64,000 nucleotides of DNA, taken from assembly GCA_017937925.1 (NCBI GenBank), contig JAGBCQ010000020.1, positions 43,597-107,596 of the forward strand. The letters run 5' to 3'. Shown here piece after piece: positions 16,264 to 29,070 of this stretch (positions are counted from its first letter, which is position 1; each line of letters opens with the position of its first letter). The notes beneath the pieces are model-generated. The model did not search any database. It worked only from the letters and a program-made list of their open reading frames with translations, and was not told the origin of the DNA. The stretch is from Paraprevotella sp. Its GTDB lineage: Bacteria > Bacteroidota > Bacteroidia > Bacteroidales > Bacteroidaceae. The translations under genes and the position numbers were made by a program.

Positions 16264-17418
16264 TTAGCTCAAGAAACCAAGCAACACACCGGCTGCAACC
16301 GCAGAACCAATCACTCCGGCTACGTTCGGTCCCATAGCGTGCATCAACAGATAGTTCTTTGAGTCGTATTCCAAACCTATGTTATGTGAAATACGTGCAG
16401 CCATCGGAACGGCAGATACTCCGGCATTACCAATCAATGGATTGATTTTCTTATGCGCCGGCAAGAACAAGTTAAAGAACTTAACGAACAATACTCCTGA
16501 AGCCGTAGCTATGATGAACGCAAATGCTCCAAGTGCAAAAATCTTAATTGTATCCAAAGTCAAGAACTCGCTTGCTTGAGTAGAACATCCTACAGTAAGA
16601 CCCAACAACATAACGATAATGTCGTTCAATGCATTGCCGGCAGTTTTAGCCAAACGAGTTGTCTTTGTACTCTCCTTCAACAAGTTTCCGAAGAACAACA
16701 TACCCAACAATGGCAAACCGGAAGGCACAATAAATGTTGTCATCAACAAACCAACTATCGGAAATATAATTTTCTCTGTTTGAGAAACTTCACGTGTAGG
16801 TTTCATACGAATCAGGCGCTCTTTCTTTGTCGTAAGCAAACGCATCAAAGGAGGTTGTAACACTGGCACCAATGCCATATATGAATACGCACACACTGCA
16901 ATAGCTCCCATCAAGTTAGGCGCCAACTTAGAGGATAAGAAGATAGCTGTCGGACCATCTGCACCACCAATAATAGCGATACCTGCTGCCTGAGCCGGTT
17001 CAAATCCCAATGCCAATGCAATCATGTAGGCACCAAAAATACCAAACTGCGCTGACGCACCCACCAACAAAAGTTTTGGGTTGGCAATCAAAGCAGAGAA
17101 GTCGGTCATGGCACCAATTCCCAAGAAGACAAGGGGTGGGTACCAACCGGTCTTTACTCCTTGATAGAATATATTCAACACCGAATGGTCCTCATACAAA
17201 CCAATCTCCAAACCAACTGACTTGAATGGGATGTTACCCAAGATGATACCTAATCCGATAGGAATCAAGAGCAACGGTTCAAAATCCTTCTTTATGGCAA
17301 GCCATAAGAAGAATGCTCCCACCAAAATCATAATCCAGTTTCCTAACTCAGCATTGGCAAAGCCGGTGTAAGTCAAGAAATCGGCAAATTTTGTTCCAAT
17401 GAAATCAAATATTTCCAT
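16264..17418 (-). CDS. mmdB: Sodium-pumping decarboxylase beta subunit (methylmalonyl-CoA decarboxylase)
   Basis: 384 residues, integral membrane protein with about ten segments. It takes the carboxyl group from biotin, releases it as CO2 and exports sodium ions. Family marks seen: GIGAMTDFSALIANP, the conserved AAGIAIIGGADGPTAIF with the sodium/proton-site Asp, and GNAGVSAVPMAAR near the end. The family is shared by oxaloacetate, glutaconyl-CoA and methylmalonyl-CoA decarboxylases; the carboxyltransferase subunit encoded at 18881-20434 points to an acyl-CoA substrate. Last gene of the operon, 3 bases after the biotin carrier. Confidence 0.92.
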   Translation of the reverse strand: MEIFDFIGTKFADFLTYTGFANAELGNWIMILVGAFFLWLAIKKDFEPLLLIPIGLGIILGNIPFKSVGLEIGLYEDHSVLNIFYQGVKTGWYPPLVFLGIGAMTDFSALIANPKLLLVGASAQFGIFGAYMIALALGFEPAQAAGIAIIGGADGPTAIFLSSKLAPNLMGAIAVCAYSYMALVPVLQPPLMRLLTTKKERLIRMKPTREVSQTEKIIFPIVGLLMTTFIVPSGLPLLGMLFFGNLLKESTKTTRLAKTAGNALNDIIVMLLGLTVGCSTQASEFLTLDTIKIFALGAFAFIIATASGVLFVKFFNLFLPAHKKINPLIGNAGVSAVPMAARISHNIGLEYDSKNYLLMHAMGPNVAGVIGSAVAAGVLLGFLS

Positions 17419-17421
17419 AGC

Positions 17422-17865
17422 TTACCCTATTGTTACCAAGATTGCACCTTCGCGAACTGAATCGCCCTTGCTTACATGAACTGCAGTCACCGTACCATCA
17501 CACTCGGCATTGATGTTGTTTTCCATCTTCATTGCTTCGAGCACAACTACCGGTTGACCTTTCTTAACGGCTTGACCCACTGTTACAGCTACAGCATTGA
17601 CTGTTCCCGGGAGCGGAGCGCAAACTGCGACTCCATTGCCTGCAGGCACCTCTACTTTCGGTTGTGGCTGCGCTGCCGGGGTTGTCGGAGCTTGATGAAC
17701 ATGAGCTACCGGACGAATTACCGGTTTATGGGTGAGGTTCATAGGACGATCCATTTCCACCTCAAAAGGAATACCATTCACTTCCACTTGCGCCTTGTTA
17801 CCTTCTACCTCGTTGATTTTAACTACGTATTCAGCGCCTTTCACTTTATATTTATATTCTTTCAT
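17422..17865 (-). CDS. mmdC: Biotin carboxyl carrier subunit
   Basis: 147 residues. The C-terminal biotinyl domain (about 78-147) holds the biotin attachment site EAMKMENN with Lys 113; it shuttles the carboxyl group from the carboxyltransferase to the membrane beta subunit. The middle is a flexible Pro/Ala-rich linker (residues about 55-75, APTTPAAQPQPK), as usual for such carriers. It is the third gene in the operon, between the gamma-like and beta subunits. Confidence 0.93.
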   Translation of the reverse strand: MKEYKYKVKGAEYVVKINEVEGNKAQVEVNGIPFEVEMDRPMNLTHKPVIRPVAHVHQAPTTPAAQPQPKVEVPAGNGVAVCAPLPGTVNAVAVTVGQAVKKGQPVVVLEAMKMENNINAECDGTVTAVHVSKGDSVREGAILVTIG

Positions 17866-17893
17866 GACTTCTATAATATTTTTATTTACTCAA

Positions 17894-18862
17894 TTAAAAA
17901 AACAATTCAGGCCATTCGCGCATTGTGTGACCTTTGGCATTCCATTCGGTATGCTCTTCGTTGTTGAACGTCAAGACGTTACTTTCTACGTCGTGAACAT
18001 CCTCATCATATTCATGAAGTGCCATTGCGATAACCGCCATATACACCTTCATATCAACACCTTGAGTTTCCATACCTTGTTTCGCCATAACAGCAGCCTT
18101 ATCCACTTGTTTGGTTACAAAACGGACACCTCCGGTTTGAGCCAATTTGGAAACATAAACAACAATTGCTCCAAAGATTCTGAAGAAGATATAAAGAGAA
18201 GCCAAACAACCAAACACGATGCACATAGCCATTATTGACATAGCAAAACCATGTGGGTCTTTCTCTTTAAATTCTTCAATCTTATCTTGCACTTTACCTT
18301 GCCCTACATTAGGACCACCGGCTGTCACCTCATCGGCATTCAATACGACCCATACATAATCTTCCGTCTTAGAATCATATACACGAGCGTATGATTGGTT
18401 CTCTGCCATAGGCGGAACGGTGATTGAATCAATCAATGAATGTCCGTTTCCGTCAAAAAGAGCAATAAAATTCTCTTCACCGGGTTTCAATATAAAATTA
18501 GTGTGTACTGTTCCCATATTGGTACGACCATCAGCAAAAAACACAATGCGCTGTTGCGCACCTACATTGGTACGTTCGTCACCCTTCGGGATTAATGACA
18601 TCAACTTAATTCTCTCAGGTACTGAAAGGCTCTCGTCCATAGCAGCACGATTGGTAGTCAAGTAACAACTACGGATGTTGTTTGTACCCCAAGCAGTGTT
18701 CGCTATCTCAATCCAAGCCGAACGATCGCCGTACTCATCAACCAAACCGTTCGTATTGGACACTACAATCTCATTGAACTTAAAGCTATACGCTCCTTGA
18801 CCAAAGGAGAATACTACTGCTGTCAAAGCAACGAGAAGTCCTAAAAATCTTTTACGTATCAT
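17894..18862 (-). CDS. Gamma-type decarboxylase subunit fused to a lamin-tail domain
   Basis: 322 residues. After a signal-like N-terminus (residues 1-21, ending FSFGQG), residues about 26-190 resemble a lamin-tail beta-sandwich: FKFNEIVVSNTNG, DRSAWIEIAN, YLTTN, FILKPGEENFIALFDGNG and the closing QSYARV-DYVW pattern. Then comes one strong membrane helix (about 206-233) and a tail like the OadG/MmdD gamma subunit, which holds the membrane complex together. The normal gamma subunit is only around 80-130 residues, so the large extracytoplasmic domain is an addition. The position between the alpha subunit and biotin carrier supports the gamma role. Confidence 0.82.
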   Translation of the reverse strand: MIRKRFLGLLVALTAVVFSFGQGAYSFKFNEIVVSNTNGLVDEYGDRSAWIEIANTAWGTNNIRSCYLTTNRAAMDESLSVPERIKLMSLIPKGDERTNVGAQQRIVFFADGRTNMGTVHTNFILKPGEENFIALFDGNGHSLIDSITVPPMAENQSYARVYDSKTEDYVWVVLNADEVTAGGPNVGQGKVQDKIEEFKEKDPHGFAMSIMAMCIVFGCLASLYIFFRIFGAIVVYVSKLAQTGGVRFVTKQVDKAAVMAKQGMETQGVDMKVYMAVIAMALHEYDEDVHDVESNVLTFNNEEHTEWNAKGHTMREWPELFF

Positions 18863-18880
18863 ATTATTATCTTAAAAGAA

Positions 18881-20434
18881 TTACAAAGGAATATTACCGT
18901 GCTTCTTCACCGGATTCAACAATTTTTTAGTCTGCAATTGAGCTAACGCACGAATTACACGGAATCGGGTGTTACGCGGTTCGATAACATCGTCAATATA
19001 ACCATACTTGGCTGCTTGATAAGGATTAGTAAAGAGTTTGTTGTACTCTGCCTCCTTCTCTGCGATATAAGCTTTCGGGTCTTCTGCTTCCTTAGCGCCC
19101 TTAGCATACAATACGGCTACAGCACCTGATGCACCCATTACCGCAATCTCAGCTGAAGGCCATGCGTAATTGATATCACCACGCAACTGCTTACAACTCA
19201 TCACGATGTGTGAACCACCATAACTCTTACGCAATGTCACTGTCACCTTAGGCACAGTAGCTTCTCCGAACGCATAGAGCAATTTGGCTCCGTGAGAGAT
19301 GACTGCATTGTACTCTTGACCTGTTCCCGGTAAGAATCCCGGTACATCCACCAATGTCACCAAAGGAATGTTGAATGCGTCGCAGAAACGAACGAAACGC
19401 GCACCCTTACGGCTGGCATTACAATCAAGTACACCGGCATAACACTTAGGTTGATTTGCCACAATACCTACACTCTGTCCATTGAAACGAGCAAAGCCCA
19501 CAATGATATTCTTAGCAAAATTCGGTTGTACTTCAAAGAACTCACCATTATCCACAACAGCGCCAATGACTTCATACATATCGTATGCTTGGTTCGGGTT
19601 GTCGGGGATAATTTCGTTCAAGAAGTCTTCCAAACGATTGATTGGGTCGTTGCACTCTACACGTGGCGCTTCTTCCAAATTATTTTGCGGAATATAACTA
19701 ATCAAAGTACGAAGCATTTGCATGGCTTCCTCCTCTGTTTGAGCAGTAAAGTGAGTAACGCCTGACTTGGTTGCGTGCATAGAAGCTCCTCCAAGTTCCT
19801 CTTGAGTCACATCCTCACCTGTTACGGTCTTTACGACTGCCGGTCCGGTAAGGAACATATAACTGGTATTTTCCATCATCAAAATAAAGTCAGTCAATGC
19901 GGGTGAATATACAGCACCACCTGCACAAGGACCGAAGATACCGGAAATCTGTGGAATAACACCTGATGCTTCAATATTACGTTGGAAAATATTTGCATAA
20001 CCTGCCAAAGCATTGATACCTTCTTGGATACGAGCACCACCTGAATCGTTAATACCGATACAAGGCGCACCCATCTTCATGGCTTGGTCCATTACCTTAC
20101 AAATCTTCTCAGCCATTGTCTCTGACAACGAACCTCCGTTGACTGTAAAATCCTGTGCGAACACATAAACCAAACGGCCATCAATGGTTCCGCTACCTGT
20201 TACGACACCGTCGCCAAGGAATTGTTTCTTCTCCATTCCAAAGTTGGTGCAGCGATGTTGCTTGAACATATCCATTTCTTCGAAACTGCCTTCATCCAAC
20301 AGCATGTCAATACGCTCACGGGCTGTGTATTTACCTCTTGCGTGTTGCTTCTCAATAGCTTTTTCACCACCGCCCATACGCGCTTTGGCACGAAGCTCTA
20401 CTAACTCTTTGATTCTCTCTAATTGATTACTCAT
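18881..20434 (-). CDS. mmdA: Methylmalonyl-CoA decarboxylase alpha subunit (carboxyltransferase)
   Basis: 517 residues, the standard size of acyl-CoA carboxyltransferases. It moves the carboxyl group of (S)-methylmalonyl-CoA to biotin, giving propionyl-CoA. Visible motifs: [13 protein letters not shown] near the N-terminus, the oxyanion-hole GGSLSE and [13 protein letters not shown] in the first crotonase-like half, and [22 protein letters not shown] and [16 protein letters not shown] in the second. The same fold serves propionyl-CoA carboxylase, but the sodium-pump beta subunit downstream argues for decarboxylation. First gene of a four-gene operon. Confidence 0.93.
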
Positions 20435-23184: not shown

Positions 23185-24879
23185 TTATATCACACCACAA
23201 AGTAATAATATAATCAGTTGAGCTGTGACGATACGTAAGAACATCGTCAAAGGATAGACCGTTGAATATCCGACTGCCGGTGCATCTGTACTGGACGACT
23301 GGTTGGCAAAAGCCAATGCCGGCGGGTCGGTTGTACTTCCTGCTATCAATCCCATTAACGTGAAATAGTTTAATTTATACTTAACTCTGGCAAGGATTCC
23401 TATGATTAGGATAGGAATTACTGTAATCAGGAATCCCATCCACACATAAGTCAACCCATCACCTTCAATAACCGTGTCCACAAAATTAGCACCGGCTTTG
23501 ATTCCTACGCTCGCGAGGAACAACGCCAAACCAAATTCCCTCAGCATCATATTGGCTCCTGTTGAGACATATGTTACCAAATGAAACCTATATCCGAAAC
23601 GTCCTATCAAAATAGCAATTATCAACGGACCTCCTGCCAAGCCCAACTTAACGGGGGTCGGAACTCCTGGTATCGCAAATGGAATACTTCCAAAAATAAT
23701 TCCAACCAAGATACCGACAAAAATAGTAATTAAATTCGGATGGTTTAATTTCTTTACAGAGTTTCCCATCATTGCTGCCACACGATCTACTGCATCTTCA
23801 GGGCCAACAACAACAATCTTATCACCCACTTGCATACGCAAATGTCTATCGGCAAAAAGGTTCATACCTGAACGTGAAATACGAGTTACGTTTACTCCAT
23901 GAACGGAACTAAAGTGCAATTGCCCGAATGTCTTACCATTCATTTTCGGTTGCGTCACAACAATGGTCTTAGAAACCAATGGGACGTCTTGTTCTTCCCA
24001 ATTGATATACTCTTCGGGACCGATAAATGCCTGAATTGCTTCTGCGTCATCCTCAGCACAAACGATGTAAAGATGGTCGCCGATATATAGTTTCGTATCT
24101 TTCGTCGGTATGCTCACATGACCGTCATGCAAGGCTCTTGAACAGACATAATCACGACCCAAGAAATTTCTCACTTGAAGAACGGTCTTATCATGAAGCG
24201 CTGCGTTTTCAACCCTCAATGTCATCTTATGTGGCTTCGCATGAGGATTTTCTGACATTTGCGCCATGATTTTATTTTCCTCATCTTTCAAACTGATTCT
24301 GCAAATATATCTTATTGCAATAGTTGCCGCTATAATACCAACCACACCTAATGGATATGCACAAGCATATCCTGAAGCTATCTGTGGTACAGACTGTCCT
24401 TCTCCAAACACCTGCGATAAGGCTTCGGTCGCAGCTCCCAAACCGGGCGTATTGGTAATAGCTCCGCATAAAACGCCCACCATCATCGGAAGATTTGTCG
24501 GGTCGGATGTATCCATAAAACATAGATATAACACCAACATCACCAAAATGTTGAGCGCAACAACCCCGCACGCCAACGCATTCAATGTTATACCACCTTT
24601 CTTGAATGACTCAAAGAATCCAGGACCGACTTGCAAACCTATGCAATATACAAATAGAATCAGCCCGAAATCCTGAATAAAGTTCAATGTTGAAAGGGTA
24701 CCGGTCAACCCCAAATGGCCAGCCAAAATTCCGGCAAAAAGAACAAAAGTAACTCCTAAAGAGATACCAAAAACTTTAATTTTCCCTAAATAAACTCCTA
24801 GCGATATTACAGCTGTGTATAAGAGTAATATATGCGCTATGGAATTCGTGTCAAACAGTAATTGTTCTAACCAACTCAT
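23185..24879 (-). CDS. AspT/YbjL-type transporter with two TrkA-C domains
   Basis: 564 residues: a block of about six membrane segments (1-190), two regulator-of-K+-conductance C-type domains (about 205-290 and 300-380, the latter with [14 protein letters not shown]), and a second membrane block (390-564). This is the aspartate:alanine antiporter superfamily layout with the AspT/YidE/YbjL duplication. Related proteins include aspartate/alanine exchangers and reported succinate exporters (SucE1, YbjL). It has its own promoter and is divergent from mutA, which together with the succinate-propionate genes nearby makes a dicarboxylate substrate attractive (inference). Confidence 0.85.
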
Positions 24880-25045: not shown

Positions 25046-26908
25046 ATGGCAAATAGTAAAGAAAAACTTTTTTCTGACTTCTGCGCGCCAACCAGACAAG
25101 AGTGGATTGACAAAATCAACGTTGATCTGAAAGGTGCCGACTATCAGAAAAAAATGGTTTGGAGAACCAATGAAGGTTTCAACGCAGAACCGTTCTATCG
25201 CAAAGAGGACGTGGAAGGTTTGTCACAAACAGACGCACTTCCCGGACAGTTCCCTTATTTAAGAGGTAACAAAAAGGACAATAACCGTTGGTATGTCCGT
25301 CAAAACCTCAAAGTAAACAACGCAAAAGAAGCCAACGAGAAGGCACTTGACATTCTCAATAAAGGGGTTACTTCTATCGGTTTCAAAATCTCAGCTAAAG
25401 ACCTTAGCGCAGATTTCATTTCCACCTTATTATATAATATAGAGGTTGAAGCAGTGGAATTGAATTTCAGTACTTGCCAAGGTCACACCGTAGAATTGGC
25501 AAAGTTGCTCGTTGCTTACTTTAACGAGAAAGGATATGCGCCTGAAAAAATTGTAGGAAGCATTAACTTTGACCCCATTCAAAAGATTATAATGAAAGGT
25601 AAGGACACTACTGCTTTACTCGCAGAGTTAAAAGCTTTAGTAGAAGTTCTTGCGCCATTCAAACAATTCCGTTGTGTCAATGTAAACGCTGACTGTCTAT
25701 GCGATGCCGGTGCATATATCTATCAAGAATTAGGTTATGCTCTTGCATGGGGTAACGAATATCTGAATCTTATGGTTGAAGCCGGAATCCCAGCCGACCT
25801 TGCTGCTAAGAAAATCAAGTTTAACCTTGGCATCAGTGGCGTTTACTTCATGGAAATCGCGAAGTTCCGCGCTGCTCGTATGATTTGGGCAAACATTGTA
25901 AAACAATACAACCCGGAATGCAATTGTTCATGCAAAATGTATGTCAATGCTACAACGTCTTCGTATAATAAGACTATATTTGATAGCTATGTAAATATGC
26001 TTCGTACACAAACAGAAGCAATGAGTGCGGCTTTGGCAAGTGTTGATGCAATCGTAGTTACACCATTTGATGCAACTTACGAAACTCCGACTGAATTTGC
26101 AGAGCGTATCGCACGCAATCAACAATTATTACTCCAAGAAGAAAGTCATTTGGATAAGATTGTTGACGTAGCAGGCGGTTCTTATTTCATTGAAACACTT
26201 ACTCAATCGTTAGCAAAACAAGCATGGAATCTATTCCTCAATATCGAAGAAGAAGGAGGATTCCTTGCTGCAGCTAAAGCTGGTACTATCCAAGAAAACA
26301 TCAACAAGACCAACGCTGAACGTCATGCCAATGCCGGCAAACGTAAAGAGTTCTTGTTAGGAACCAACCAATTCCCTAACTTCAACGAGACAAGCGAAGG
26401 TAAAGAACCAATGGAAACTTGTGGATGTTGTCATAGTGGCAATTCATGCGAGAAACCATTCGCTAAGATTGAAACCAGCCGTTTGGCATCCGACTTTGAA
26501 GAGTTGCGTTTGCAAGTTGAAAAAGCAGATAAGCAACCTGTAGCATTCATGTTGACTATTGGTAATCTAGCCATGCGTCAAGCACGTGCTCAGTTTAGTT
26601 GCAACTTCTTGGCATGCGCCGGTTATAAAGTGATAGATAATTTAGGTTTCCCAACAGTGGAAGAAGGTATTGATGCCGCAATGAAAGCTAATGCAGACAT
26701 CGTGGTATTATGTTCAAGTGACGACGAGTACGCAGAGTATGCGATTCCGGCATTCAAGGCTCTAGATGGTCGTGCCATGTTCGTCGTAGCAGGTGCACCG
26801 GCATGCGCTGAAGACTTAAAAGCCGCAGGTATTGAGAACTTCATTCATGTTCGTGTTGACCAACTGAAGACATTGAAAGAGTATAACGCAAAATTGGGAA
26901 TCAAATGA
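25046..26908 (+). CDS. mutA: Methylmalonyl-CoA mutase small subunit
   Basis: 620 residues. MutA pairs with MutB in the coenzyme-B12 mutase that interconverts succinyl-CoA and methylmalonyl-CoA. It contains the TIM-barrel half ([44 protein letters not shown]) and a C-terminal flavodoxin-like domain that lacks the DxHxxG cobalamin motif, as expected for the non-catalytic subunit. A cysteine-rich insertion ([15 protein letters not shown], bases 26420-26458) separates the two domains and is unusual. The stop overlaps the start of mutB (ATGA), so the subunits are coupled. Confidence 0.93.
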
Positions 26909-29070
26909 GACAGAATTTTAAAGACGTAGATATATTTGCCGGTTTTGGACAAGAAAACGGACAGACTTGGCAAAAAGAGAATGGCATCACAGCCAATTGG
27001 ACAACACCGGAACAAATTGATATTCAACCGGTGTACACAAAAGAAGATTTGGAAGGCATGGAACACTTGGACTTCGCTGCCGGTATTCCTCCGTTCCTTC
27101 GTGGTCCGTATAGTATGATGTACCCGTTCCGCCCGTGGACAATCCGCCAATACGCCGGTTTCTCTACTGCAGAAGAAAGTAACGCATTCTACCGCCGTAA
27201 CTTAGCAAGTGGACAAAAAGGTTTATCCGTAGCGTTCGACCTTCCGACACACCGCGGATACGACCCGAACAACGAACGCGTAGTCGGAGACGTTGGTAAG
27301 GCAGGTGTTTCCATTTGTTCGTTGGAAAACATGAAAGTCTTATTTGAAGGTATCCCTTTGAATAAGATGTCTGTTTCCATGACTATGAATGGCGCTGTAT
27401 TGCCGATATTAGCATTCTATATCAATGCCGGTTTGGAACAAGGAGCGCAACTTGAGGAAATGGCAGGTACTATCCAGAACGACATTTTGAAGGAGTTCAT
27501 GGTACGTAATACCTACATTTACCCACCGGCATTCTCAATGAAGATTATTGCCGACATCTTTGAGTTCACATCTCAAAAGATGCCTAAGTTCAACTCAATT
27601 TCAATTTCAGGTTATCACATGCAAGAGGCAGGTGCAACCGCTGACATTGAATTGGCATACACATTGGCTGATGGTATGGATTATTTACGTGCAGGAGTCA
27701 ACGCAGGTATTGACATTGACGCTTTCGCTCCACGTCTCTCTTTCTTCTGGGCTATCGGCATGAATCATTTCATGGAAATTGCAAAGATGCGTGCCGCTCG
27801 TTTGTTATGGGCTAAGATTGTTAAGAGTTTCGGAGCCAAGAATCCGAAGTCAATGGCGTTGCGTACTCACTCACAAACATCTGGTTGGTCACTCACTGAG
27901 CAAGATCCTTTCAATAACGTTGGTCGTACTTGTATTGAAGCTATGGCTGCCGTACTAGGACATACACAGTCGCTCCATACCAACGCTCTTGATGAAGCTA
28001 TCGCACTTCCGACTGACTTCTCAGCTCGTATTGCCCGTAATACACAGATTTACATCCAGAACGAAACGCAAGTTTGCAAACACATTGACCCATGGGCTGG
28101 TTCTTACTATGTTGAGACTTTAACCAATGAATTGGTTCAAAAAGCATGGGCGCACATTCAAGAAATTGAGAAACTTGGTGGTATGGCAAAAGCTATTGAG
28201 ACCGGTCTTCCTAAGATGCGTATCGAAGAGGCTGCCGCTCGTACACAGGCTCGTATTGACTCCGGTGTTCAAACCATCGTCGGCGTGAATAAGTATCGTC
28301 TAGAGCATGAAGACCCGATTGACATTCTTGAAATTGACAATACAGCGGTTCGCTTACAACAAGAAGAAAATATCAAAGTGCTGAAGGCTAACCGTAACGA
28401 AGAGGAAGTTAAGAAGGCTCTTACAGCCATTACAGAATGTGTTCGCGAATTTAACGAAGGCAAGAAAAGTGAGAACAACTTACTCGACCTCGCTGTTAAA
28501 GCAGCAGGTGTTCGTGCTACATTGGGAGAAATATCAGATGCTTGCGAAGCTATCGTAGGCCGTTACAAAGCAGTTATTAGAACTATTTCACAAGTGTATT
28601 CATCAGAAAGCAAAGGAGATGCCGACTTCGCAATGGCTTGCGAGTTGACAGAAGAGTTCGCAAAAGCAGAAGGACGTCGTCCGCGTATAATGATTGCCAA
28701 GATGGGACAAGATGGTCACGACCGCGGTGCAAAAGTTTGTGCTACCGGTTATGCTGACTGCGGTTTCGACGTTGACATGGGACCATTGTTCCAGACACCG
28801 GCTGAAGCTGCCCGTCAAGCAGTAGAAAACGACGTAAACATCATGGGTGTCAGCTCATTGGCTGCCGGTCATAAGACTTTGATTCCTCAAGTAATTGAAG
28901 AGTTGAAGAAATTAGGTCGTTAAGACATCATGGTAACAGCCGGAGGTGTTATTCCTGCACAAGATTATGAATTCCTTTATCAAGCAGGCGTCGCAGCCAT
29001 ATTCGGTCCAGGAACATCTGTAGCAAAAGCTACTTGCGAAATGATGAAGATTCTATTAGACAAAGAATAA
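26905..29070 (+). pseudogene. mutB: Methylmalonyl-CoA mutase large subunit, interrupted by in-frame TAA
   Basis: The first open part (26905-28923) encodes 672 residues of the catalytic subunit, including [11 protein letters not shown], the substrate-binding [20 protein letters not shown] and the cobalamin-ligand motif DGHDRGAKV with His 605. A TAA at 28921-28923 stops it. The same frame then continues without any further stop for 48 codons to 29070 and encodes exactly the missing end of the B12 domain (DIMVTAGGVIPAQDYEFLY, AAIFGPGT). Joined, the length is 721 with the stop as one residue, the normal size. Homologues have a Glu at this place, so GAA to TAA explains it. Either a nonsense mutation, a sequence or assembly error, or readthrough. 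Confidence 0.85.

Follow-up and report, generated by a model that had tools for sequence, protein, structure and literature searches.

The window analysed here is a stretch of 64,000 nucleotides from Paraprevotella sp. (contig C17, positions 43597-107596), taken from a draft assembly whose 33 contigs total 2,060,335 bases, with a completeness of 78.58% and a contamination of 0.31%; the assembly is probably a metagenome bin. It carries, on the forward strand, the genes for both subunits of methylmalonyl-CoA mutase. The small subunit gene mutA (25046-26908) is intact and encodes 620 amino acids, which match TIGR00642 at 617.2 bits, just below the cut-off of 617.25. The large subunit gene mutB (26905-28923) adjoins it directly, and the TGA of mutA overlaps the ATG of mutB as ATGA (26905-26908), an arrangement that suggests translational coupling. 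The mutB frame is cut: from the ATG at 26905 it runs through 672 sense codons to an in-frame TAA at 28921-28923 (codon 673), which lies outside any homopolymer run. Known RNA elements in the window at Rfam gathering scores were limited to one tRNA, no tandem repeats were found in it, and the phage sequence collection gave no match.

The 672-residue product matches the NF006944 equivalog at 1195.8 bits (cut-off 876) and is 97% identical over 672 amino acids to MutB of G011, its best full-length match among the congeners. The catalytic domain PF01642 is complete (positions 1-512 of 512) with no stop inside it. The B12-binding domain PF02310 contains the motif GQDGHDRG, which we take to be the cobalt-ligand motif, and is covered only from position 2 to 78 of 121 before the stop; coverage rises to 2-118 only when the TAA is read through. 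Compared with known MutB proteins (NF006944; solved relative 1req_A), the locus thus shares the whole catalytic domain, the start of the B12 domain and the adjoining mutA, but here the protein ends within the B12 domain, codon 673 being a stop and 48 codons being cut off.

Behind the stop the same frame stays open for these 48 codons (28924-29067) and then ends at a normal TAA (29068-29070). Both AGGVIPAQDY and AIFGPGT are encoded within this remainder. With the TAA read through, the frame comes to 721 residues, compared with 714-723 in the loci of 29 relatives counted from the aligned start, and the stop removes the last 49 residues of the full frame (672 vs 721). The remainder scores as coding, at 13.6 bits against a median of 7.4 for real 48-codon gene ends, and is not a product of chance. 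Six bases past the stop lies an ATG (Met676 of the full frame), which opens a 46-aa ORF (28930-29070, forward strand) and is a candidate start for reinitiation. This piece alone matches the C-terminal end of the mutase models NF006944 (E 7.3e-13) and TIGR00640 (E 1.8e-11), in both cases under the curated cut-offs and with a very short piece, and it also matches the solved mutases 8gju and 2xij and, weakly, 1req. The first-pass annotation had described an otherwise open mutB frame with a TAA at 28921, 48 codons behind it that encode the conserved end of the B12 domain, a joined protein of normal length and the loss of part of that domain, and on each of these points our analysis agrees with it.

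A comparison with close relatives, which the same annotation had called for, revealed a sense codon at position 673 in all 111 relatives (94 Glu, 8 Asp, 7 Pro, 1 Lys and 1 Ser). These loci comprise 31 from whole genomes and 80 from a contig collection, and a species may occur twice among them. The 80 are the best of 596 candidates and come mostly from the Bacteroidales or elsewhere in the Bacteroidota; a few are labelled differently, namely as Ignavibacterium and Selenomonadales. Their top matches are labelled Bacteroidaceae, Prevotellaceae or Bacteroidales, and several come from faeces or rumen. After residue 672 the frame ends within 47-52 codons in 109 of the 111, the other two reaching a contig end. 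Within the genus, mutB is found in 16 of 18 genomes, and the other 15 all have a sense codon at this site. The congener nearest by MutB protein, G007, has GAA, which agrees with the single G to T change in GAA that had been proposed. The stop is therefore restricted to this genome among those examined. A mutB frame in G059 that ends near codon 587 was considered as a matching split and rejected, since the contig ends there. In the literature searched we recognised no report of a premature stop in mutB of Bacteroidales, though one may exist.

PF01642 has two matches in the genome, mutA and the interrupted mutB, and the 78.6% complete assembly has no second mutB copy; such a copy could sit in the missing part of the genome. 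Across the 18 genomes of the genus, mutB was never seen in more than one copy. Elsewhere in the genome PF02310 has only one other match, inside a 948-aa frame on contig C6.

In our view the stop is probably a recent single-base nonsense change that interrupts the only mutB copy seen in the assembly, a reading to which we attach moderate confidence. It is supported by the sense codon in all 111 relatives and in 15 of 15 other genomes of the genus with mutB. Ribosomes would stop at codon 673 and release a MutB of 672 residues, which would retain the catalytic domain together with that end of the B12 domain which carries GQDGHDRG. Deprived of the final 48 residues, where GGVIP and FGPGT lie, it should bind adenosylcobalamin weakly if at all, and the flow of carbon should halt at succinate. 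Judged from the sequence, the truncated product would presumably be inactive.

A long-dead enzyme would be expected to let MutA and the upstream part of MutB drift. Replacements were assigned to lineages by comparison with G007, whose mutB lies on two contigs (L113 1-429; L114 3360-4946), and polarised with 13 congeners; G010, in which the gene also lies on two contigs, was kept outside the private-change and lineage counts, and its codon 673 was counted. In residues 1-672 of MutB, 3 replacements fall on this lineage and 4 on that of G007, with 8 more not assignable, while in MutA the numbers are 10 and 13 in 493 compared columns, with 32 more not assignable. Private replacements upstream of the stop number 2 in 570 invariant columns, and the 14 congeners span 0-8. 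Relaxed selection is thus seen neither in MutB 1-672 nor in MutA, as would be expected of a young change. The lack of drift in these regions argues against an old null allele and suggests either a stop of very recent origin or an error in the consensus.

The tail behind the stop shows a weak excess of replacements, which is equalled by one of the 14 congeners. Two of its replacements belong to this lineage (D689E and A710T), a third (K693Q) is ambiguous, and G007 has none. In Fisher tests without correction, 2 of 48 against 3 of 672 gave p 0.038, and inclusion of K693Q (3 of 48) gave p 0.005. Codons 1-529 differ from G007 by 216 synonymous and 15 replacement codons, codons 530-672 by 39 and 0, and the 48 tail codons by 16 and 3; on replacement versus synonymous change, again uncorrected, the tail gave p 0.032 against codons 31-672 and p 0.031 against codons 530-672. 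All these tests were chosen after the data had been seen and we put no weight on them. The C-terminal end of MutB is freer in general, the tails of the 14 congeners holding 5 private replacements in total, and L007, one of these congeners, combines 1 private replacement upstream with 2 behind the stop site, where this genome has 2 and 2. In addition, Glu is what the human enzyme carries at the site of D689E, so this replacement need not mean harm or relaxed constraint.

The main competing explanation is that the TAA arose as an error of consensus calling or assembly, or through the choice of a minority allele where depth was low, and that mutB is intact in the organism. G-to-T substitution is among the known types of error, one such change would suffice, mutAB otherwise looks undamaged, and the sequence comes from a draft (33 contigs, 78.58% complete) that is probably a metagenome bin. 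On the other hand, the site lies outside homopolymer runs, the private replacements in upstream MutB (2 of 570 invariant columns) lie inside the range of the congeners, and a scan of contigs C17 and C6 (447 kb, 328 ORFs) brought to light no other ORF whose stop is clearly followed by coding sequence of its own frame. That scan took in ORFs of at least 100 aa and in-frame tails (no frameshifts) of at least 15 codons; the C6 tails were the best 25 of 91, and the Pfam check of gene pairs was made on C17 only. Weaker positive scores were obtained for tails on C17 (2.4 and 1.3) and, among the best 25 of 91, on C6 (7.4 over 19 codons, 4.3, 2.9, 2.5 and 2.4). Other tails run on in frame into the neighbouring gene: 6 pairs on C17, in 4 of which the partners are of different Pfam families, and at least 19 pairs among the best 25 of 91 on C6. 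The one tail that scored above the 13.6 of mutB and contains no further ORF of 100 aa, behind C6:315643-317127 (25.0), turned out to be a distinct helix-turn-helix gene. Synteny with contig C1 of G011 was unusable as a general check for broken genes, because only 9 of the 90 C17 ORFs were matched there; the 4 with at least 50% identity are a permease (23185-24879), mutA and both mutB pieces. Since no second clear coding tail was recognised and upstream MutB has no excess of odd residues, a generally poor consensus of the assembly is unlikely. We infer that the base at the stop is real, and consider an error at this one site, or a mixture of strains, possible rather than probable.

Reinitiation at the ATG at 28930, an option absent from the first-pass annotation, is possible judging by its position six bases past the stop. 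If it occurred, the stop could be a real and adapted one, in which the 672-aa part and the 46-aa part together form a working split B12 domain. The enzyme would then be a three-chain B12 mutase (MutA, MutB-N and MutB-C) made by termination and reinitiation over a 6-base gap, with the cut just before GGVIP, an arrangement that seems slightly less credible still. Besides the in-frame ATG, it would fit that MutA and upstream MutB change no faster than in G007 and that the replacements of this lineage concentrate in the tail (the uncorrected p of 0.038 given above). But the ATG is present in G007 too and is no new start, all 111 relatives carry a sense codon in place of the stop, the tail varies more freely in any case, as L007 illustrates, and the human Glu at the D689E site means that relaxed constraint is not implied. 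To our knowledge no enzyme is split inside its B12 domain. In B12 mutases whose small subunit is a chain of its own, such as 2-hydroxyisobutyryl-CoA mutase (4r3u chains A and C), two polypeptides likewise make up one catalytic and B12 unit, a likeness that holds if the 46-aa part is made; there the small chain carries the B12 domain, whereas mutB is cut inside the domain, and this locus accordingly has no separate gene for a whole B12 domain. A functional split MutB is thus possible but unlikely, and we would give an adapted stop of this kind little credence.

The least probable explanation, one that we regard as very improbable, is that the TAA is read through by a suppressor tRNA, recoding or another genetic code to make full-length MutB: the 48 codons keep the frame and are well conserved, but TAA is an ordinary stop that ends 239 of the 328 ORFs on C17 and C6, the natural end of mutB is itself a TAA, no TTA anticodon was found among the 36 tRNAs of this 78.6% complete genome, whose missing part could hide one, and the RNA over 100 bases past the stop folds like its shuffles (z -0.16), so that both a genetic-code change or tRNA suppression and a structured readthrough signal were rejected. 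The first-pass annotation had left the choice between a very recent change, an error and tolerated readthrough; with mutAB otherwise normal the first two stand, while the third is opposed by the tRNAs, the RNA fold and the usage of TAA.

If the stop is a recent nonsense change, it would lie within a pathway whose other recognised parts are open. Open frames are present for the epimerase (contig C7), for MeaB (C18) and for the carboxyltransferase (C17; 18881-20434 in the window). The last belongs to a decarboxylase-type cluster on the reverse strand (16264-20434), made up by Pfam domains of OAD_beta (16264-17418), OAD_gamma (17894-18862) and the carboxyltransferase (18881-20434), and presumably with a role in this pathway. 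Its position near mutAB on the opposite strand resembles the arrangement in Xylanibacter ruminicola, where, according to PMC11575231, mmdB, mmdC and an oadG-like gene lie near and antisense to mutA/mutB. The same source states that propionate formation in X. ruminicola needs cobalamin and that succinate builds up without it. By analogy, a dead MutB here should leave succinate as the end product.

In two of the 18 genomes of the genus, G004 (91% complete) and G009 (97% complete), neither MutB nor MeaB finds a match, whereas the MutB query also finds MutA in each of the other 16. G004 and G009 each keep one carboxyltransferase. The mutase module as a whole has apparently been lost from both, and the genus thus seems to tolerate loss of the mutase.

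Premature stops are also on record in another member of the Bacteroidales. In a study of gut B. fragilis quoted in PMC11379459, 325 new nonsynonymous mutations were counted and 28 of them were premature stops, which are thus frequent among new mutations; it is argued there that premature-stop alleles may be locally useful and may revert. Alleles of this kind would fit a mutB stop too young for other decay, and it is speculation that the stop has been selected here. Common to these cases is one early stop in a gene that is conserved in other respects; in B. fragilis they are new mutations within hosts, whereas here we have a metabolic enzyme in one draft assembly.

If the stop is real, the choice between succinate and propionate as exported product would hang on one base in this bacterium, and we would be looking at a metabolic function lost very recently, in a genus in which two other genomes lack matches to the mutase and MeaB. 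If it is an error, it cautions against inferring the loss of a pathway from one base in a draft. Single premature stops are ordinary in draft genomes, the case rests on one base, and neither outcome alters what is known of the mutase enzyme.

Two smaller observations were made along the way. On L157 (11822-12700, reverse strand) a 292-aa ORF with no Pfam match (E up to 1e-8) ends 6 bases before an in-frame 622-aa BNR_4 protein, and the two may be either two genes or one split gene. Within mutB, dS against G007 is 0.56 in codons 530-672 and 1.23 over codons 31-672, and this low-dS segment is perhaps a local conversion or recombination tract.
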